64,000 bases of DNA from Streptomyces spinosus (GCF_020400655.1 NZ_JAINRC010000019.1:1-64000), one strand, 5' to 3'. Shown: positions 36,385 to 45,766, numbered from the stretch's first letter. Program-made: numbers and translations. Notes: generated from the letters alone by a model not told the origin.

Positions 36385-36687
36385 TCAGCGCCCCACGTCC
36401 ATCTTCGACCCGTCCTCGCCGTGCGGTTGGAGCTCGACCTGAATGCGGTGCGTGTTGTCGCGGGAGAGCGTGCCGCCGGCCTCCGCGGTGACGACCCCGA
36501 TCCGCAGGCCCGCCCGGCCCCGGCCCTCGCGGCGCACCTGCACGGTGAACTCGAGGCTGACCTTCTCGACGCCGAACCTGATCGGGCTGCCGGCGCCCCG
36601 ACGCTGGGCGTCCTCCAACTCCTCCCGTATCCGGCTGATCACGTCGGCCAGGCCGGCCGTGTACGGGTCGTCCGCCCCATGCTCCAT
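36385..36687 (-). CDS. Trypco2-like (trypsin-co-occurring domain) protein
   Basis: This 100-residue protein begins with a helix GLADVISRIREELEDAQRRG, then strands IRFGVEKVSLEFTVQV and GLRIGVVTAEAG, and ends THRIQVELQP. This is the pattern of Trypco2, a small domain found beside trypsin-like proteases in predicted bacterial conflict systems (recalled family; not searched). The neighbouring divergent gene encodes just such a protease, 64 bases away, which supports the call. It may keep the protease inactive or recognise an invader signal; this is inference. Confidence 0.78.
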   Translation of the reverse strand: MEHGADDPYTAGLADVISRIREELEDAQRRGAGSPIRFGVEKVSLEFTVQVRREGRGRAGLRIGVVTAEAGGTLSRDNTHRIQVELQPHGEDGSKMDVGR

Positions 36688-36737
36688 CGTTTACGGTCCG
36701 CCCATCCGTCAGAGGGGTCAATATCGGGCTTCGCTTC

Positions 36738-36752
36738 TATACTACGTATGCA
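36738..36752 (+). promoter_or_regulatory. -10-like element at the protease start (possibly leaderless)
   Basis: TATACT at 36738-36743 is a good -10 hexamer, only 8 bases before the ATG at 36752. No Shine-Dalgarno sequence is present. If used, transcription would begin at or next to the start codon. The -35 region is weak (GGTCAA near 36716). Confidence 0.45.
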
Positions 36753-38548
36753 TGGGGGACGGGGGCGTTGTCTTACAGAGAACCGACGGATCGTCAGGCG
36801 AGGCGATTTGGAGGGTGCGTTTACGCACCGGCACGATGTCGGGCAGCGGGCGGATCCTGGGCGCCGGGGTGCTGCTGGGCGCGGACCGGGTGATCACCTG
36901 CGCGCATGTGATCCTCGACGCGGACACCCGGCAGTGGCCGGAGCGGGTACGGGTCGAATTCCCGCTGCTCCAAGGCCTGTCACGGAACGAGTCGCGCACC
37001 GCCACGGTGCTGGACGGCCACCGGCTCCGGGCCTTCGGCAAGGACCAGGGCGACCTGGCGGTGCTCCTTCTGGACAGGGCCGCGCCGGTGCCTTCCCCGG
37101 CGAAGTTCCACCGCGTGCTGGACTACCACGGCGCGCCGGTCCGCATCAGCGGCTTTCCCGAGCGGCATTCGGGCGGCTGGTGGGTCAGCGGCTCCTGCTT
37201 GGGACCCGGCGGCCACGGCGACGAGCGGGTCGTGATCGTGCCGGACCCGGGCCAGCGCATCACGGGCGGCTTCAGCGGTGCCGGCGTGGTCGAATCCGGC
37301 ACGGGTCGGCTGCTGGGCATCGTGGTGCAGGCCGAGAAGCAGGACCGCGAAGCGTACATGATCCCCGCGGCCACCATCGCCAAGTACCTGCCGGACATCG
37401 GCAGTTCGTACGTGACGGGGCCCCAGGTGATCCCACCCGACTACGTGGTCTCGCCGCACACCACTCACACCGCCCGCCCGCACGGCCTTCAGCGCCAGGT
37501 GACGCGGTGGCTGCACGGAGGCTCCCACGGGTGGGACGTGGAGCTGCTCCACATCCCGCAGAGCGACCACACGGCCCGGCAGGCCCTGGCCGTCGTGCTG
37601 AACATGGCGGACCGCGAGCAGTCGCCACCGTTGTCCACCGAGTCCGCGGCCCTCTCGGGCGCTCCGGACCTGTCGGCAGCCGGGGTCGAGCCCAAAGTGG
37701 GCAGCATCTCCCTGGTGATCGACGTGGCCGGCACCTCCCTGAAAGACCCGGAGCAGCCGGCGACGCGGGAGGCGCTGGCCGCGCTGCGTGATCGGCTCGA
37801 CGCGTTGAGCGGCCGCGGCGCCCGCCCGGCTGTGGCCGTCTTGGGCGCCGACCGGTCCACGACATCACCCGCGGCCGGCGTGCGCATACTGCGTGACCTG
37901 CGCGACAGCGGCGCCCGCCTCCTCCTCGAACTCCGCGGCGGCAATCACGAGTTCGTGCGCGAGGTGGCGCGCGAACTGCTGCCCGACGACCGTCCGCGGC
38001 GCTGGCTGGACCGGCTGTGCGCCCGCGTGGACGAGCTGGCCGCGGCGGAACGCCGCGCCCGGGACGCGTACGCACAACTGGAACCCCGGGTCGTACAACC
38101 GCCGAGGCCCGGCGACCATGCGCCACTCGCCCAGATCTGGGTCCTGGAACTCGACCGGGAGCTACGGGAACGGGAAGAGGAGCTCTCCGCGGCCGCCGTC
38201 CCCCAGGAGACGGCGGGATGGCCACTCCTGGAGAGACTCTCCGTGGCGGAACAAGCCGTGGAGACCCACCTGCTGCGGGCGGAGAGAGTCGAGCGCACCC
38301 TGAAGGACATGCTCGGCCGGCACAGGGAGCTGTGCGGTCGGCTCAACGCGGCGCAGAGCGCGCTCGTGCGGCGCGGACTGGGCGAGGATCGCGCCGCCGT
38401 CGGCCCGTTCACCGAGGCCCAGCGGTTGCTGATGGTCGACCCGTGCCCGCTGCCCGACGCCGAGCGGGCGGTCGAGAAGTTCGAAAGGGAGGTACGGCGG
38501 CTGCGCCGCCAGGACGAGGAGAGGCGAGGGGAGGAGGGCTTCCAGTGA
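36752..38548 (+). CDS. Trypsin-like serine protease with helical C-terminal region
   Basis: This 598-residue protein has an N-terminal S1-type protease domain. His52 is in VITCAHVI, Asp101 in DQGDLAVLLLD, and Ser175 in TGGFSGAGVV (GFSGA for the usual GDSGG). There is no signal peptide, so it is cytoplasmic. From about residue 310 a second alpha/beta part (VGSISLVIDVAGTSL, then ARLLLELRGGNHEFVREVAR) leads to long helices, including DAYAQLEPRVV and a coiled-coil-like end KFEREVRRLRRQDEERRGEE. This layout resembles trypsin proteins with vWA-MoxR-associated-protein-like tails. Its stop overlaps the next GTG by 4 bp; it heads the operon. Confidence 0.87.
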   Translation: MGDGGVVLQRTDGSSGEAIWRVRLRTGTMSGSGRILGAGVLLGADRVITCAHVILDADTRQWPERVRVEFPLLQGLSRNESRTATVLDGHRLRAFGKDQGDLAVLLLDRAAPVPSPAKFHRVLDYHGAPVRISGFPERHSGGWWVSGSCLGPGGHGDERVVIVPDPGQRITGGFSGAGVVESGTGRLLGIVVQAEKQDREAYMIPAATIAKYLPDIGSSYVTGPQVIPPDYVVSPHTTHTARPHGLQRQVTRWLHGGSHGWDVELLHIPQSDHTARQALAVVLNMADREQSPPLSTESAALSGAPDLSAAGVEPKVGSISLVIDVAGTSLKDPEQPATREALAALRDRLDALSGRGARPAVAVLGADRSTTSPAAGVRILRDLRDSGARLLLELRGGNHEFVREVARELLPDDRPRRWLDRLCARVDELAAAERRARDAYAQLEPRVVQPPRPGDHAPLAQIWVLELDRELREREEELSAAAVPQETAGWPLLERLSVAEQAVETHLLRAERVERTLKDMLGRHRELCGRLNAAQSALVRRGLGEDRAAVGPFTEAQRLLMVDPCPLPDAERAVEKFEREVRRLRRQDEERRGEEGFQ

Positions 38549-41001
38549 CCCGGTGCCCCGAGCCCGGGTGCCCCGGGACACTCACCCCGGCCGGCTTCTG
38601 CCGGGTCTCCGGCGAGCGGGTCGACTCCACCGTCGGACGGCACGCGTCCATGTCCGCGTCGGCGACCGTGCCGAGCGACCCCTGGGACGTCCTGCTGCCG
38701 CAGGAGAGCACCGACCCGACCCTCCTCCCCGAGATCAGGAGGAGAGCCGGCACACCGGTCGGCGACGCCCCGGACGTGCTGAGCGGCACGGTCCTCGGAG
38801 ACCAGTACGAGCTGGTCGGACCGCTCGGCCACGGAGGGGTCGGCCAGATCTATCTGGCACGGGACCGACGGGTCGAGCGCGACGTGGTCGTCAAGTACCT
38901 GCGCCCCGAGCAGGTGGGAAACCTGCGCAACGCCATGGACGAGGAGCGGCGCACCCTCCGGGACCTCCACCACGACGGCATCCTCGACGTGATCAACTTC
39001 GGCAAGCACGAGGGCGTCGGTGACTACCTCGTGCTGCCCTACCTGACCGGACCCAATCTGGAAGAGGTACGGGCACTGGCCCAGCGCCGCCCCGCGGCCT
39101 TCGGTGACGCCCGCTTCCAGGAGTTCGTGCTCGCGTACGGCATCCGCGCGCTGTCCGCCCTGGCGTATCTGCACGCCCCCGAGCACAACAAGGTCTACGG
39201 CGACCTGAAGCCCCAGAACCTGATGCACGAACACGCCACGCTCATGGTGATCGACGTGGGGAGCATCAGGGCCGAGGGAGCGCCCGGGGTGACCACGGAC
39301 CGTTTCCGCGCCCCGGACGTGCCCCAGGAGACCGGTGAGACCACCAGCCGTGACGACCTGTACAGCCTGGGGGAGACCCTGCGCAGCATCTGCGGTCTCG
39401 GGGACAAGACGCAGGACCTCCAGGAGATCGGCGCCCTGGACCCGCTTCCGCCGGAAGGAGCCGGCGGCGGTACGACGGCCGGCCCGGCGAGCGCGTTACG
39501 CGCCGACGTCGCCATGCGGATGACCGCGCCCGCGCCCAAGGACCTCGGCCTGGTCTCGCTCGCCCGTGTGCTGCACCGCGCCACCCGCGCAAGGCGGGCC
39601 GACCGGTTCGCCACCGCGCAGGAGATGGACTACCAACTGCGCGGCGTCTTCCGCGAGTTGCGGTCCCTCAGGACCGGCCTGGAGACGTTCGAACCCTCAC
39701 CGCTGTTCTGGCAGTCGCCACACGCCCTGGCCGGGGCGCTCGGTACGGCGTCGGCGCTGCCGCGGGCGGCGGAGCAGCCGGCAGGGGGCACACCGCCCGC
39801 ACACCTGTGCGCGCCGCCGAGCAGCGCCGAGGTGGCCCAGCACCTGCCCGTGCCGCGCCCCGATCCACAGGACGCCAACTACAGCGCGTTGAGCCGCCTC
39901 TCCGACGACGACCCGGCCTCGCTCCTCCAGCGCACCGACGACTGGGACGACTCGCCGGAGATCTTCCTGCTGCGCTGCCGACTGCGCGTGCGCGTGGCCC
40001 TGCGCGCACGGCAGCAGGCAGCCGACGACGCGACCGGCGGGCCGGCCGCCGCCCCCGGGCCGGGCATCCTCGACCTGGCCGAGGCGGAAGGGGAACTCGC
40101 CCAGGCAGAAGCCGCCATCGGTCCAGAACATGCCCCTCACGACTGGCGACTGGACTGGCACCGCGGCCTGCTCGCCGTCGCCCGCGACGACGTCCGCGCC
40201 GCCTGGGGCCACTTCGACGACGTCTACGCCGCGATCCCCGGCGAGTACGCGCCCAAGCTCGCCCTGGGCTGTTGCGCGGAACTGCTGGGGGCGTGGTCCG
40301 AGGCGCAAAGGTTCCACGAGGCGGTACGGGTGCGCAACCCGTCCCTGGGGGGCGCGGCCTTCGGTGTGGCGCGGGCTTGGCTGGCCCGCGAAGACCGCAC
40401 CGGGCTTCCGAGCGCCATCGACGCCCTCGACGGCGAGCGCGCCCCGCACGAGAAGGCCATCGACGCCCTCGACGCCGTACCCCAGCACTCACCCCATCGC
40501 ACCGCCGCCCGTGTGGCGGCGGTGCGGATCGCCGCGGGCATGGCCCGCGACGCACGCGGGCTGGACGCGGTACTCGGCCGTTTGTCCCAGCTCTTCTACG
40601 GCCAGGGCCTGCTGGACGAGGACGTCGGCGTCCGGGTCAAGGCCGAGGTCTGGGAGGTCGCCCAGCGCCTCGTTGACGAGGGCGGGATTTCCCCCGCCGA
40701 GCTGAGGACCCTGGCAGCCGGTGCCGGCGCCGCACGCATCGACTTTCCCGCCGACGAGCGGCATCTGCGCACGGACCTCTCCGCGTTCTACGTGCGCCTC
40801 GCCCACCAGGCCGCCCGAGCCGGCGGGCCGAACGGCACCGAAAACGCGGAGGAACTGCTGGACCGGGCCTACCGCGTCCGCCCCCTCGTCCTACGACACA
40901 ACGGGAACGGCCCATGGCTGGGGAGAAGGATCATCTCATGGCTGCGCTCGATCACCCCGGCCCGGCCGGGAAGCCGGAGGCCACGGTCACCGTCGAGGTG
41001 A
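38545..41001 (+). CDS. PknG-like serine/threonine kinase with TPR-like tail
   Basis: This 818-residue cytoplasmic kinase starts with a ribbon-like segment CPEPGCPGTLTPAGFCRVSG in which the fourth cysteine is replaced. The kinase domain shows the Gly loop GHGGVG (95-100), Lys117 in VVVKYLR, the catalytic segment VYGDLKPQN (Asp220; non-RD, as in PknG VYNDLKPEN) and VIDVGS (Asp237; DVG for DFG, as PknG DLG). From about residue 440 to 800, helical repeats resemble the PknG TPR domain, with WRLDWHRGLLAVARDD close to that family. In mycobacteria PknG senses amino acids via GlnX and GlnH. GTG start, 4-bp overlap with the protease gene. Confidence 0.88.
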   Translation: MTRCPEPGCPGTLTPAGFCRVSGERVDSTVGRHASMSASATVPSDPWDVLLPQESTDPTLLPEIRRRAGTPVGDAPDVLSGTVLGDQYELVGPLGHGGVGQIYLARDRRVERDVVVKYLRPEQVGNLRNAMDEERRTLRDLHHDGILDVINFGKHEGVGDYLVLPYLTGPNLEEVRALAQRRPAAFGDARFQEFVLAYGIRALSALAYLHAPEHNKVYGDLKPQNLMHEHATLMVIDVGSIRAEGAPGVTTDRFRAPDVPQETGETTSRDDLYSLGETLRSICGLGDKTQDLQEIGALDPLPPEGAGGGTTAGPASALRADVAMRMTAPAPKDLGLVSLARVLHRATRARRADRFATAQEMDYQLRGVFRELRSLRTGLETFEPSPLFWQSPHALAGALGTASALPRAAEQPAGGTPPAHLCAPPSSAEVAQHLPVPRPDPQDANYSALSRLSDDDPASLLQRTDDWDDSPEIFLLRCRLRVRVALRARQQAADDATGGPAAAPGPGILDLAEAEGELAQAEAAIGPEHAPHDWRLDWHRGLLAVARDDVRAAWGHFDDVYAAIPGEYAPKLALGCCAELLGAWSEAQRFHEAVRVRNPSLGGAAFGVARAWLAREDRTGLPSAIDALDGERAPHEKAIDALDAVPQHSPHRTAARVAAVRIAAGMARDARGLDAVLGRLSQLFYGQGLLDEDVGVRVKAEVWEVAQRLVDEGGISPAELRTLAAGAGAARIDFPADERHLRTDLSAFYVRLAHQAARAGGPNGTENAEELLDRAYRVRPLVLRHNGNGPWLGRRIISWLRSITPARPGSRRPRSPSR

Positions 41002-42341
41002 ACCAGGTCGCCGAGCTCACCAAGCCGCGCGACGGAGTGACCGACCCGGTCCGCATGTACGCGGTGCTCACCGTGTCCGTCCGCAAGCACGGCGATGCCG
41101 TGCCGCGCCGGTCCGCGGTCGACCACGCCGAGGTGCTGCTCATCGACCACTCGTCGTCGATGGTCAGCCCGCCGAGCCGGCTCGCGGCCGCCCGTAGGGC
41201 GGCGGTGGACGCCCTCGGCCGAATCCCCGACGGGGCGCGCTTCGCCCTCGTCGCCGGCAGCGACCAGGCCACCATGATCTACCCGCATGACTTCCGTCTC
41301 GCGATCGCGGACCGGAAGTCGAGGGACGCCGCGGAGGCCGCGCTGCGGGCGTGCGCACCGGGGGGCGGCACGGCGATGGGCACCTGGCTGAAGGCCGCGC
41401 TGGAGATCCTCGACCGGCCGGACGCCCCCGCGTCCCGCCACGCTCTGCTGCTCACCGACGGCAGGAACGAGGAGGCGTACGAGAGACTCGACGTCCTGCG
41501 CGACCGTGTCGAGCGGTGCGCCGGGGGCTTCGTCTGCGACGTCTTCGGCATCGGAGCGGGCTGGCGGACCGAAGAACTGCTGCTCATCGCCGGCGAACTG
41601 GGCGGGCAGGCCCGCGCGGTACGCGACCTCACCCGGCTGCCCGGTGAGATGGCCGCGCTCGCCGAACAGGCCGCGGAGCGCGACATCACCGGACTCCGGC
41701 TGCGGCTGCACTACCGCAAAGGGGTCACCCGGTACTCCTTCGAGCAGGTGCACCCCACACGGGTGGCCCTGCACCCCGCGCGCACCGACCGGTCCGCCGC
41801 CGACTCCTCCGCCGGCGGGCCCATCGAGGAGTACACCACCGCGCCGTGGCGGACCGAGACCCGCGACTACCTGCTCTGCGTCGGCACCCCCTACCACCCG
41901 GACGAGGACGGCAAGGAGCTGTTCCTCACCGAGATAGAGGTGGCCGTGGCCCCCGGGCACGGCAAGCGGATCCGGCTGCCCGAGCCCGAAGCGGTCATGA
42001 TGCGCTGGTCGGACGACGCCGACCTGTACAGCAGGGTGCACCCCCGAGTCGCCCACTACCGGCAGACGGAGAAGTTGCGCCGCACCTTCGAGCAGGGGTG
42101 CGCCGCGCTGCGCGGGGGTGACCAGGCGTCGGCCGAGAAGCACTTCGGCACCTGCTGGCACCTGGCCGTGACGGCCGGCGACGAAGTGATGAAGGACCAC
42201 CTGCGCCGACTCGTCGAGGTTCACGAACACCCGTCCGGCCACCCTGAGGTCCGGCTCCTGACGAGGATCGAGCGGTTCGACGTGGAGTCCGCACGGATCG
42301 AGCTGAGCCGGGTTCCGCTGCCGGACGGGGGCCGGCGGTGA
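40938..42341 (+). CDS. Von Willebrand factor A-domain protein
   Basis: This 467-residue protein has a vWA domain between about residues 62 and 240 with a complete MIDAS: LLIDHSSSM (Asp70, Ser72, Ser74), a Thr in GGGTAMG and the Asp of LLTDGR. A beta-rich region and then helical TPR-like stretches (FEQGCAALRGGDQASAEKHF) follow. No signal peptide. The ATG at 40938 has GGGAGAAGGA upstream and lies 64 bases inside the kinase gene; ATG 40914 is also possible. vWA proteins are frequent partners in kinase and MoxR-type systems. It likely binds the kinase or protease as an adaptor (inference). Confidence 0.88.
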   Translation: MAALDHPGPAGKPEATVTVEVNQVAELTKPRDGVTDPVRMYAVLTVSVRKHGDAVPRRSAVDHAEVLLIDHSSSMVSPPSRLAAARRAAVDALGRIPDGARFALVAGSDQATMIYPHDFRLAIADRKSRDAAEAALRACAPGGGTAMGTWLKAALEILDRPDAPASRHALLLTDGRNEEAYERLDVLRDRVERCAGGFVCDVFGIGAGWRTEELLLIAGELGGQARAVRDLTRLPGEMAALAEQAAERDITGLRLRLHYRKGVTRYSFEQVHPTRVALHPARTDRSAADSSAGGPIEEYTTAPWRTETRDYLLCVGTPYHPDEDGKELFLTEIEVAVAPGHGKRIRLPEPEAVMMRWSDDADLYSRVHPRVAHYRQTEKLRRTFEQGCAALRGGDQASAEKHFGTCWHLAVTAGDEVMKDHLRRLVEVHEHPSGHPEVRLLTRIERFDVESARIELSRVPLPDGGRR

Positions 42342-43567
42342 CGCGCCGGGCAGCGCGGTCCGCGACCGTCCCGCGAAGGCTCCTCCGTGGCGCGCACCAC
42401 GGCCTGGTGGCGGGCGCGGACGCGGCACGACGGATATGGCGGTACGCCTGGCCCGCGGTGGGACTGCAGGGCAACCGGACCTATCTGCGCGACCGGTTGA
42501 TCGCCCTGCCGCTGCTCGCGGTCATCACCTTCTGCGGCTTCTGCTGGGCGTTCGCCCAGGTCCACGGTGATTCCACGTACATCAGGGACAGCCTGGCCCC
42601 CGCACTCGAGGAACTCGCCGACGCCCGGGCCTCCGTCCAGATCGCCCAGACCGAGGCCCGGGCCAGCCTCACACTGGGGCACGACGCCACCCTCAGCGGG
42701 CTGAGCGAACGCTACAAGGCACGCAGCGCACAGGCCACGCAGGACCTTACCCAGGTCGCCCAGCACGGCGTGCTGGACAGATCCGAGCAGCTGAACCTCA
42801 ACGTGGTGATCGGACTGCTCAGCGACTACGCCGGTGCCGTCAACCGCGCACAGGGCGACGCGCAGATCTCCCTGCGCACGGCGGAACTCTCCTACGCGCA
42901 GGCCATGATGTGCAGCCACGGCCGGGACGAGGCCGCCGAGCGCCACAGGGCGGCGTCCGGCAAGGCGGCGCCCGTGCCCTCGTCATGCCGGAACCCCGGC
43001 GTGGCCGGCCCGCAGGCGACCACGATCGTGGACCGGATCTCCACCCTGGAGTCGGACTTGCACGGACAGCTCGCCGGCCGGGCCGCCCTGAGCCGCCGTG
43101 TGCTCGCCGTGGGGGCGTTGTCCTGTGTCACCTTCGTCCTGCTCGCGGTCGGCCTGACCTGGACCATGGTCTTCCTCAACAGCCGGTTCAGGATCATGGT
43201 GAGCCTGCCGCTGCTCGCGGTGGCGATCCCGTTGGCGGTCCTGCCCTTCATGGCCTACGACGCCGCGCTGGCGCATCGTGCCCAGCACCGTGCCCTCGTC
43301 CTCGCACAGGACCTGAGATCCGGGACGTCACCCGTGTTCGAGACCGATGCCGAGCAGAACCCGTTCAGCACCCCGTCCCGTTACACGATCGCGTCGCTGA
43401 GGGACGAGACCGGCGCCGCACTGTCCGAGGACCGACTGCTGTTCCCGGGCGGTACGGGGCCGGCCGTGCTGCTCGCCGGCCTGGCCGGTGCCGCGGTGGC
43501 CGCCGGGGCACTGCACGACTACGGGCGCGAGTACCGTCTCGTCGCCGCCCTGGGGGCTGTCTCATGA
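42338..43567 (+). CDS. Four-TM sensor-like membrane protein (GlnX-like architecture)
   Basis: This 409-residue protein has TM1 near residues 54-73, a helical extracytoplasmic domain of about 175 residues, then TM2 at 255-280, TM3 at 286-306 and TM4 at 374-392. The outside part, including LEELADARASVQIAQTEARA, suits a four-helix bundle like the sensor part of mycobacterial GlnX. Its gene is in the same relative place next to a substrate-binding lipoprotein and a PknG-like kinase. Two pairs of outside cysteines are absent, though three cysteines are seen. It overlaps both neighbours by 4 bp. Probably relays lipoprotein signals across the membrane. Confidence 0.72.
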   Translation: MTRRAARSATVPRRLLRGAHHGLVAGADAARRIWRYAWPAVGLQGNRTYLRDRLIALPLLAVITFCGFCWAFAQVHGDSTYIRDSLAPALEELADARASVQIAQTEARASLTLGHDATLSGLSERYKARSAQATQDLTQVAQHGVLDRSEQLNLNVVIGLLSDYAGAVNRAQGDAQISLRTAELSYAQAMMCSHGRDEAAERHRAASGKAAPVPSSCRNPGVAGPQATTIVDRISTLESDLHGQLAGRAALSRRVLAVGALSCVTFVLLAVGLTWTMVFLNSRFRIMVSLPLLAVAIPLAVLPFMAYDAALAHRAQHRALVLAQDLRSGTSPVFETDAEQNPFSTPSRYTIASLRDETGAALSEDRLLFPGGTGPAVLLAGLAGAAVAAGALHDYGREYRLVAALGAVS

Positions 43568-44868
43568 ACCGTACCCTGCGCCGCTCTGAGAGCCGCCGGG
43601 CCATGTTCCGCCGCATCGTGCCGGCCTGTTGCCTGCTCCTGCTGGTCGCACTCTGCGGCGGATGCACGAAGCCGGAGCAGCGCACACTGGTCGTGCTCGG
43701 GCCTTGGACCAACCGCGAGGGCGAGGCTTTCGAGGCGACGCTGAAGGACCTTGCCCGCGGCACCGGCTACACGTACACCTACCAGGGCACCACATCGATC
43801 AGCGAGACCCTCGTCGCCGAACTCCACGCCGGCTCACCCCCGGATGTGGCGATCCTCAACAGCATCGGCGAACTCGCCGCATACGCACGCGAGAACAGAC
43901 TGCGGCCGATCCACCGCACCAAGATGCAGGACGTCGTCCCGCCCTGGGCGCCCGAGATAACGGTCCACGGGACGTCGCGCGCCTACTGGGTGCCCCTCAA
44001 GGTGGATCTGAAAAGCCTGGTCCTCAGCAAGAAGACGGCGTCGTCCGGGCAGGGGAACTGGTGCATCGGGCTGGCCTCGGAAGCGACGTCCGGCTGGCCC
44101 GGTACCGACTGGATCGAGGACATCCTGCTCCACCAGGCAGGTCCTCGGGAGTACGCGAAGTGGGCGACCGGGAGGCTGGCCTGGACGGACGCCAAGGTGA
44201 AGCGCGCCTGGAAAACCTGGAGATCCATTCTCGGTCTCGACAGGCTGTCCAGGAAAACCCGTGAGAGCGACCTCATGACGTCCTACCGGGGCCCGAGCGG
44301 ACCCCACGGCCCTCAGGGTCTGCTCAACTCGTCCAATTGCCGCCACGAACACCAGATCGGCTACATGCGCTCGTTCTACAGCGGCGACGACACGGTCGAC
44401 GTCGCGCCTTCGTCGAGTTACCTGCGAGGTGACCACAAGTACCAGAACGACTTCGAGGTCTCCGGCGACATGGCGGCCGTCTTCAGTGACCATCACGCGG
44501 CACAGGACCTGATCCGCCGCCTGTCCGGCCAGAACGGCCGAGAGACCTGGCAGGACCAAGCGGCACGAGTGTCCGAGCCGGGCCTGGAGCCGCTCTTCCC
44601 CGGCCCCGAGGCCCCGCAACCCAGCGACCGGATCGGCAGTGAGATCGCCCCGTACCTCACCAATGCGCACACGCTCTGCTTCGACGCCTCGGACGTGATG
44701 CCCCCCGCACTGCGCGACACCTTCTACCGCGCGGTACTGGAGTTCTACGCGGAGCCCTCCGACGCCCAACTGACACGGTTACTGGAGCAGTTGCAGGCCC
44801 TGACGAAGCACGAGGAACCACCCGGGCAGTCGTTCCTCTCCCTGAGTGACATCTGCGCCTCCCCTTAG
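43564..44868 (+). CDS. Substrate-binding lipoprotein (family 1 SBP-like)
   Basis: This 434-residue protein has a lipoprotein signal: basic start, VPACCLLLLVALCGGC, lipidated Cys34. The mature part begins TLVVLGPWTNREGEAFEATL and SISETLVAELHAGSPPDVAI, typical of type-1 (MalE/UgpB-like) extracellular solute-binding proteins, and hence not the GlnH fold class by sequence. No ABC permease or ATPase genes accompany it, so it is probably a sensor, not a transporter part. It is the last gene of the operon (ATGA overlap with the membrane protein). An IS fragment begins immediately downstream. Confidence 0.8.
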   Translation: MNRTLRRSESRRAMFRRIVPACCLLLLVALCGGCTKPEQRTLVVLGPWTNREGEAFEATLKDLARGTGYTYTYQGTTSISETLVAELHAGSPPDVAILNSIGELAAYARENRLRPIHRTKMQDVVPPWAPEITVHGTSRAYWVPLKVDLKSLVLSKKTASSGQGNWCIGLASEATSGWPGTDWIEDILLHQAGPREYAKWATGRLAWTDAKVKRAWKTWRSILGLDRLSRKTRESDLMTSYRGPSGPHGPQGLLNSSNCRHEHQIGYMRSFYSGDDTVDVAPSSSYLRGDHKYQNDFEVSGDMAAVFSDHHAAQDLIRRLSGQNGRETWQDQAARVSEPGLEPLFPGPEAPQPSDRIGSEIAPYLTNAHTLCFDASDVMPPALRDTFYRAVLEFYAEPSDAQLTRLLEQLQALTKHEEPPGQSFLSLSDICASP

Positions 44869-44871
44869 ACG

Positions 44872-45436
44872 GTGTCCTACGTGGTGAGGCGGATGAGTCG
44901 CTTGTAGCAGCAGAGGGCGGCGGTGAGTCCGAGAAAGGCCAGGTAGTTGCGGGGATTGCGTTCGTAGCGGGGGCTGAGTCGGCGGTAGCCGGACAGCCAG
45001 GACATCGTCCGCTCGATGACCCGTCTGCGGCGCCCTAATCGCTCGCTGGACTCGATGCCTTTGCGGGCGATGCGCACGCCGATGCGCTTGCCGCGGAGCC
45101 ATCTGCGCAGGTCGGCGCGGTCGTAGGCTTTGTCGGCGTGCAGGCGCTGGGGCTTGAAGTGGCGGCCGCGGTGGGGGTCGTGTCTCGTTTGGTGACCCTT
45201 CACCATCGGCTTGAGTCCTTCGCTGTCGTGGACGTTGCCGGCGGAGACGCCGACGAGGAGGGGCAGGCCGTTCGCGTCCGACAGGACGTGCATCTTGGAA
45301 CCCGGCTTGCCCCGCTCCACGGGGCTCGGACCTGTGTGTTCGCCCCCTTCTTAGCGCGGACGTGGGCGGTGTCCAGGACGACGCGGGTGACGTCGACCAG
45401 ACCGGCGTCGTCGAGCCGGTGCAGCACGAACTATGC
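44872..45436 (-). mobile_element. Truncated IS5-family element next to the operon
   Basis: OrfB is nearly intact (148 residues, 44877-45320 on the minus strand): RGKPGSKMHVLSDANGLPLL, HADKAYDRADLRRWLRGK (second Asp) and RRRVIERTMSWLSGYRRLSP (Glu). Upstream in another frame, LHRLDDAGLVDVTRVVLDTA and HVRAKKG represent the last 35 residues of OrfA, with the expected frameshift at a G run. The 5' part of the element is missing; it ends at about 45436 in unrelated sequence. The right end starts GGTGTCCTAC right after the lipoprotein stop. Confidence 0.85.
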
Positions 45437-45766
45437 GCGCGGAGCGAGTGCGTGAAAGGCGAACTACGTAAGGAGCGCATCACGCATGTGAGTCTTCCGC
45501 TGCCTCACGACGTGGACCCCGACTCCGGTCCGGTCCGTTTCCGGGTCACTCGCCAGGATGAGGACAGGCCCCTGATCGACACGTCCGCCGACGTGCGGCT
45601 CGTCCGCCAGACCGACGGCTGCACCAGCAGCGCCTACAACCGCGGCCTGGCCTTCACCAAAGAGAAAGGCCTGATGACGAAGGTTCCGAAAGCGGTGTCG
45701 GACGCCTGGGGCCGACAGATCAGATCGCAGGCAACCGCAGACCCCGATCCAGCTTCGGCCCCCTGA
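45437..45766 (+). pseudogene. C-terminal fragment of an unknown protein, cut by the IS
   Basis: The frame beyond the IS reads CVKGELRKERITHVSLPLPH, SGPVRFRVTRQDEDRPLIDT, DVRLVRQTDGCTSSAYNRGL and ends SQATADPDPASAP. It looks like a beta-rich domain with two cysteines, perhaps the end of an extracytoplasmic protein. No start is present because the IS fragment replaces the 5' region. Family unknown. Confidence 0.5.

Follow-up and report, generated by a model that had tools for sequence, protein, structure and literature searches.

Signalling from a substrate-binding protein (SBP) through GlnX to the kinase PknG has experimental precedent in the canonical GlnH–GlnX–PknG cassette only (PMC6069109, PMC9769921, PMC8546545), and two further kinases, SCO1468 and SGR_4432, have been described as genetically linked to binding proteins (PMC6069109). 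For the trypsin-bearing VMAP conflict systems, Kaur et al. reported mutual exclusion of Trypco1 and Trypco2 (PMC7159879). Here we describe a locus in a 64,000-nucleotide stretch of Streptomyces spinosus DNA (GCF_020400655.1 NZ_JAINRC010000019.1:1-64000; "the window", from a 9.17-Mb genome), in which a trypsin-like protease, a PknG-type kinase, a vWA protein, a GlnX-like membrane protein and a binding lipoprotein are encoded by five successive genes. These five genes form one conserved system, of which a search of open-licence papers returned no description. Since the GlnX-like protein, the vWA protein and the protease C-terminus are homologous to parts of the GlnH–GlnX–PknG cassette and the kinase is nearest to PknG, the locus is, judged by sequence homology, a paralogue of that cassette. 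Because genes for binding protein, relay, kinase, adaptor and protease travel together, the set suggests that soil actinomycetes have a sensing pathway ending in controlled protein cutting, beyond phosphorylation alone.

Survey of other genomes revealed that the gene order was kept in 85 loci, in Streptomyces and several other actinobacterial families; conservation of order in dozens of other genomes places the cluster far beyond chance. Gene calling relied on a codon-usage caller and hidden Markov models built in-house, and all counts depend on both and on contig ends. The first-pass annotation had expected protease and kinase homologues to occur together elsewhere, and a pre-set test bore this out: among 40 further loci selected by the protease only, 39 carried protease, kinase, vWA protein, GlnX-like protein and SBP in the same order, at identities down to about 25–30%, and the 40th (L115) was a lone trypsin matching in the trypsin domain only. 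By the end of the protease survey 55 full loci had been collected, of which 54 belong to the same family as the window (about 18% of the Streptomycetaceae genomes sampled), with median intergenic distances of −4 (vWA/GlnX), −4 (GlnX/SBP) and 4 (protease/kinase). A GlnX-like search, with neighbourhoods read, covered 298 genomes of the same family. Searching named species with the SBP only yielded 80 loci, most with GlnX and kinase and the majority of those with the full set; full sets were present in Streptomyces, Amycolatopsis, Kutzneria, Solihabitans, Actinokineospora and Streptosporangium, and Actinomadura contained GlnX–SBP or partial loci. A search of a plasmid collection returned a single distant match to the vWA protein. 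Loci L041 and L047 are incomplete, probably through fragmented contigs, and do not figure among the variants; L070–L074, drawn in by a GlnX alignment that contained GlnX–SBP fusions, are by appearance plain sugar ATP-binding cassette loci and were set aside. Some loci occupy fixed chromosomal places adjoining rpe, ychF or ohr-like genes (names by inspection). S. ardesiacus and S. olivaceus carry the system beside rpe, and we take SCO1464 to be rpe as well; SCO1468 and SGR_4432 may belong to a system of the window type.

Natural fusions joined components of the set. Of the 55 full loci, 11 encode GlnX and the SBP as a single polypeptide, corresponding to 4 changes on the kinase tree (FastTree, with long branches present); additional named genomes have this fusion too. 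By inspection of one such fusion (L051), the former lipoprotein signal became an extra helix behind the GlnX C-tail, so that the SBP would still lie outside; its AlphaFold2 model had a mean pLDDT of 88 and a pTM of 0.81. Another 10 loci encode protease and kinase as a single polypeptide, a fusion that the kinase tree traces to two independent origins, the first within Streptomyces and the second within Pseudonocardiales. An apparent vWA–GlnX fusion (L192:7635-10031) was a frameshift artefact and was left uncounted.

The presence of the vWA gene followed the state of the protease. Kinase, GlnX and SBP were all readable in 117 loci, where a vWA gene accompanied the free-standing protease in 85 of 85 loci and the protease–kinase fusion in 0 of 10; it was also present in the single locus where only a free protease C-terminal domain remains, and in 1 of the 21 loci where the protease is missing. 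The kinase tree contains seven independent pairs whose members differ in the status of the protease, and the vWA gene tracks this difference in six and opposes it in none (sign test, p 0.03). Retention only beside a free-standing protease predicts an adaptor role, in which the vWA protein probably bridges the separate protease to the kinase. The protein has a complete metal ion-dependent adhesion site (MIDAS: D-x-S-x-S, T153 and D182), in agreement with the first-pass annotation, and the two MIDAS aspartates are present in 55 of 55 loci.

The same genome contains a canonical cassette (G000:C17:97855-107900; L055:9856-19901), which comprises genes for GlnX (494 bits against the NCBIfam model), a family 3 SBP (SBP_bac_3, E 2.5e-26), a coiled-coil protein of 426 aa, a PknG that carries the rubredoxin and TPR domains besides the kinase domain, PP2C and a vWA protein. 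It further encodes a zinc-ribbon protein, truncated where the fetched stretch ends. Profile alignment with hhalign revealed full-length homology between the two vWA proteins (E 1.3e-81); in the same way, the C-terminus of the window protease aligned with the coiled-coil protein at 34% identity across 98 columns (E 2.1e-11). The zinc-ribbon protein was suspected to be of FHA type, but Pfam on its partial sequence gave no confirmation. The canonical Streptomyces cassette thus exceeds the three genes usually described.

A non-RD kinase with PknG motifs and a TPR-like tail had been proposed for the second gene, and the profiles agreed: the PknG TPR domain (PF16918) was matched by the window kinase and by 14 of 14 relatives, the best PDB match was M. 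tuberculosis PknG (2PZI, E 6e-40), ranking above PknB, and the nearest solved structures were PknG of M. tuberculosis and C. glutamicum. The ribbon beside the kinase domain (PknG_rubred, PF16919) had no Pfam match in the window kinase, which retains one Cys-rich N-terminal motif, and was matched in 6 of 14 relatives. All kinases of the set are non-RD, as PknG is, and the catalytic Lys, Asp, Asn and DFG-Asp are retained in 55 of 55 loci. The protease triad predicted by the first reading, His52, Asp101 and Ser175, is invariant across 15 aligned relatives and retained in 51–52 of the 55 loci. Because catalytic residues are kept across loci, both enzymes are expected to be active. In two loci (L033 and L037), the kinase carries a low-complexity insert of 200–400 aa behind the kinase domain.

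Fold searches with the protease returned the Umb1 particle, DegS and HtrA as best PDB matches, and its AlphaFold2 model, of modest confidence (pLDDT 74), consisted of a trypsin domain (20–220), a middle domain (244–410) and helices (414–595). Pfam matched only Trypsin_2 and Trypsin; the strands and motifs of the middle domain (37418–37981, residues about 223–410) recall the second half of a STAND NTPase without Walker A, but a reading as such a degenerate NTPase found no support from Pfam or the fold search. The Trypco2 gene scored 98.2 bits against PF19631 (gathering score 24.2). Among the 55 full loci, 29 contained Trypco2, 8 contained Trypco1 (PF19493; confirmed by Pfam on two loci) and none contained both, for which chance would be 0.001 if the loci were independent, which they are not. 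One Streptomyces clade repeatedly has, in the vicinity of the system, a separate 263-aa trypsin beside a 938–980-aa AAA/LuxR-type regulator (L063, L081–L083, L094, L194–L196 and L209).

The GlnX-like protein contains four hydrophobic segments (about 54–72, 255–273, 286–304 and 374–392), consistent with the four-transmembrane (four-TM) protein with a large outside domain described at first; the outside domain spans about 180 aa and is joined by a second of about 65 aa and a short cytoplasmic C-tail. Its kinship to GlnX, which had also been claimed, was upheld by an hhalign match to canonical GlnX (Table 1) that spans the first outside domain and TM2–TM3, and by matches of 16 of 19 relatives to the NCBIfam model NF058618 at E < 0.01. 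Across 19 relatives Tyr399 in the C-tail does not vary, and the last residues of canonical GlnX are E-Y-R; this Tyr motif is a candidate docking site for the TPR domain, which would fit an earlier proposal (PMC6069109, PMC8546545). One correction concerns the binding protein, which is not of the GlnH type (SBP family 3) but of a carbohydrate type. The lipoprotein has a lipobox-like LCGGC and a weak Pfam match to SBP_bac_1; fold searches with the relative from L051 returned AcbH and glucose-, chitin-oligosaccharide-, maltodextrin- and xylan-binding proteins, and profile searches returned NagB2, the sugar-binding lipoprotein 3VXB and AcbH. The SBP is an orphan, with no permease genes at the locus. 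GlnX–SBP pairs without a nearby kinase also exist (L056–L059, L201 and L216; family f18, Actinomadura), and because of them the pair may signal to another partner too.

All six genes that the first-pass annotation had placed at 36385–44868 were recovered there, with the Trypco2 gene divergent from five plus-strand genes joined by overlaps, also as first described (Table 1). Three overlaps, protease/kinase, vWA/GlnX and GlnX/SBP, are of 4 nt; the kinase/vWA overlap is of 88 nt, or 64 nt if the vWA gene begins at its second ATG (40938). TATACT at 36738–36743 lies 8 nt upstream of the protease ATG, a placement that would make the protease message leaderless or nearly so. A scan of the divergent region with a sigma-70 consensus, which is of the E. 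coli type, found no full promoter. On the minus strand at 44877–45483, beginning 8 bp past the SBP stop, lies a remnant in two frames that resembles, by inspection, an IS5-type transposase.

Table 1 Features of the locus, with positions counted from the first nucleotide of the window
Feature	Position	Strand	Evidence
Trypco2 (trypsin-co-occurring domain 2) protein, 100 aa	36385..36687	minus	PF19631 E 3.2e-28
Putative divergent promoter region, 64 bp	36688..36751	none	read from sequence
Trypsin-like serine protease with C-terminal helical domain	36752..38548	plus	Trypsin_2 E 7e-9
PknG-type non-RD Ser/Thr kinase with C-terminal PknG TPR	38545..41001	plus	PknG_TPR E 3.4e-27, Pkinase E 1.3e-17
Cytoplasmic vWA protein, complete MIDAS	40914..42341	plus	VWA_2 E 6e-10
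GlnX-like four-TM transducer	42338..43567	plus	NF058618 E 4e-5, hhalign to canonical GlnX E 1.2e-15, hydropathy
Binding lipoprotein, carbohydrate-type SBP (SBP_bac_1 class)	43564..44868	plus	fold and profile searches

We consider it probable that the locus senses an extracellular saccharide and thereby gates an intracellular protease, through a paralogous PknG cassette with a proteolytic output. The homology of the parts, the conservation of the set and its order, the fusions, the intact catalytic residues and the co-loss of the vWA gene were computed; what we infer is the class of ligand, the docking itself, the direction in which the signal runs, the control exerted on the protease and the role of Trypco. 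The lipid-anchored carbohydrate-type SBP would capture its ligand outside and dock on the GlnX-like protein's outside domain. Through short cytoplasmic tails, the GlnX-like protein would then relay the signal to the kinase's TPR domain. The PknG-type kinase and the vWA protein would together control the trypsin-like protease, which may be anchored to the complex through its helical C-terminal domain, presumably a legacy of the coiled-coil component of the canonical cassette. The vWA protein would serve as the protease–kinase bridge and become dispensable once both are fused, and Trypco2 (Trypco1 elsewhere) may restrain the protease or help to select its substrates. A more specific version, in which a saccharide acts through the SBP/GlnX relay on a kinase that directly gates the protease through the vWA protein, as an outside-in kinase-to-protease cascade deciding the fate of the cell or hypha, is plausible, but we put it forward tentatively.

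Several observations weigh against a saccharide-gated protease. The window GlnX-like protein scored 22.9 bits (E 4e-5) where the cut-off of NF058618 is 250, the carbohydrate assignment of the SBP is one of fold and remote sequence similarity at 12–18% identity, and the distance correlations between components (r 0.93–0.96) carry no correction for shared ancestry. About 20 loci, moreover, consist of kinase, GlnX and SBP without the protease, and in these the kinase must act on other substrates or in other roles. This three-gene form (L033–L040, L137–L150 and L173–L176) is nested within protease-bearing forms on the kinase tree and therefore probably arose by loss; in the window's own clade, most members have lost both protease and vWA gene. 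Such loci, together with the homology to a metabolic cassette and the absence of a protease domain from the canonical coiled-coil protein, would suit a kinase that acts on metabolism as canonical PknG does, on a FHA substrate of the GarA/OdhI type, with the protease a mere scaffold through its helical C-terminus and the trypsin vestigial or constitutive. However, retention of the triad in nearly all of the diverged proteases suggests that their activity is under selection, Trypco genes go with the protease, and the operon contains no FHA gene; we regard this explanation as distinctly unlikely.

The immunity or cell-death role suggested by the first-pass annotation fared poorly: its support was the Trypco/trypsin link only, and several loci lie in ordinary chromosomal contexts (rpe, ychF). 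In such a conflict system, which we think unlikely, sensor and kinase would detect a phage or rival and the trypsin domain would kill the cell, as proposed for VMAP trypsin/Trypco modules. Pairing of the trypsin with either Trypco1 or Trypco2 follows the same rule as in conflict systems (PMC7159879), and the patchy distribution would also fit, but the conserved block comes without MoxR ATPase, VMAP domain, nuclease, TIR or pore-forming partner, the fixed loci (including the ohr-like sites) are outside defence islands, PADLOC models gave only generic protease and kinase matches, and a sugar-type SBP would be an odd phage sensor. That the genes are unrelated and neighbours by chance or position, reflecting nothing more than the tendency of Streptomyces signalling genes to cluster, is refuted by the order shared among loci, the fusions and the overlapping starts and stops, and its probability is negligible.

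Communication between GlnH and GlnX and between GlnX and PknG is an open question in the biology of tuberculosis and of amino-acid producers, where, in the papers cited here, contacts have been proposed rather than shown; the natural GlnX–SBP and protease–kinase fusions are tethered forms that make those contacts testable. If saccharide sensing gates the protease as proposed, regulated proteolysis joins the outputs of PknG-type kinases, and the trypsin/Trypco module extends beyond conflict systems.

Comparison with described systems showed that the window shares with the GlnH–GlnX–PknG cassette an operon of binding lipoprotein, four-TM GlnX and PknG-TPR kinase, and with its canonical Streptomyces copy also the homologous vWA protein and the coiled-coil C-terminus that matches the protease. 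In contrast to the cassette, the SBP is of carbohydrate rather than amino-acid type (family 3, GlnH), a trypsin domain is joined to the coiled-coil part, the second outside domain of GlnX is short, and a Trypco gene is added; PP2C and the downstream zinc-ribbon neighbour of the canonical Streptomyces copy are absent, as is the rubredoxin ribbon of canonical PknG, which corynebacteria also lack. SCO1468 and SGR_4432 resemble the window as Streptomyces Ser/Thr kinases beside an SBP gene, and their mention covers that link only, not a protease, vWA protein, GlnX kinship or Trypco (PMC6069109). The GAP1-N2 kinase–PP2C–vWA genes of actinobacteria likewise link an active zinc-ribbon kinase to a stand-alone vWA gene (PMC7159879), whereas the window has neither GTPase nor PP2C and instead combines a PknG-type TPR kinase with SBP and GlnX. 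No AAA+ (MoxR-like) gene was present in the conserved block of the 85 loci or detected by Pfam in the six window proteins, nor did Pfam find a VMAP core domain on the protease; lacking both MoxR ATPase and VMAP domain, the locus is not a member of the VMAP class, in whose place it has a kinase, GlnX, SBP and a vWA protein of the PknG-cassette type. VMAP (MoxR–vWA) ternary systems nevertheless contain a trypsin-like protease beside mutually exclusive Trypco1 or Trypco2 and a vWA protein (PMC7159879), and the trypsin/Trypco module is shared between them and the window.

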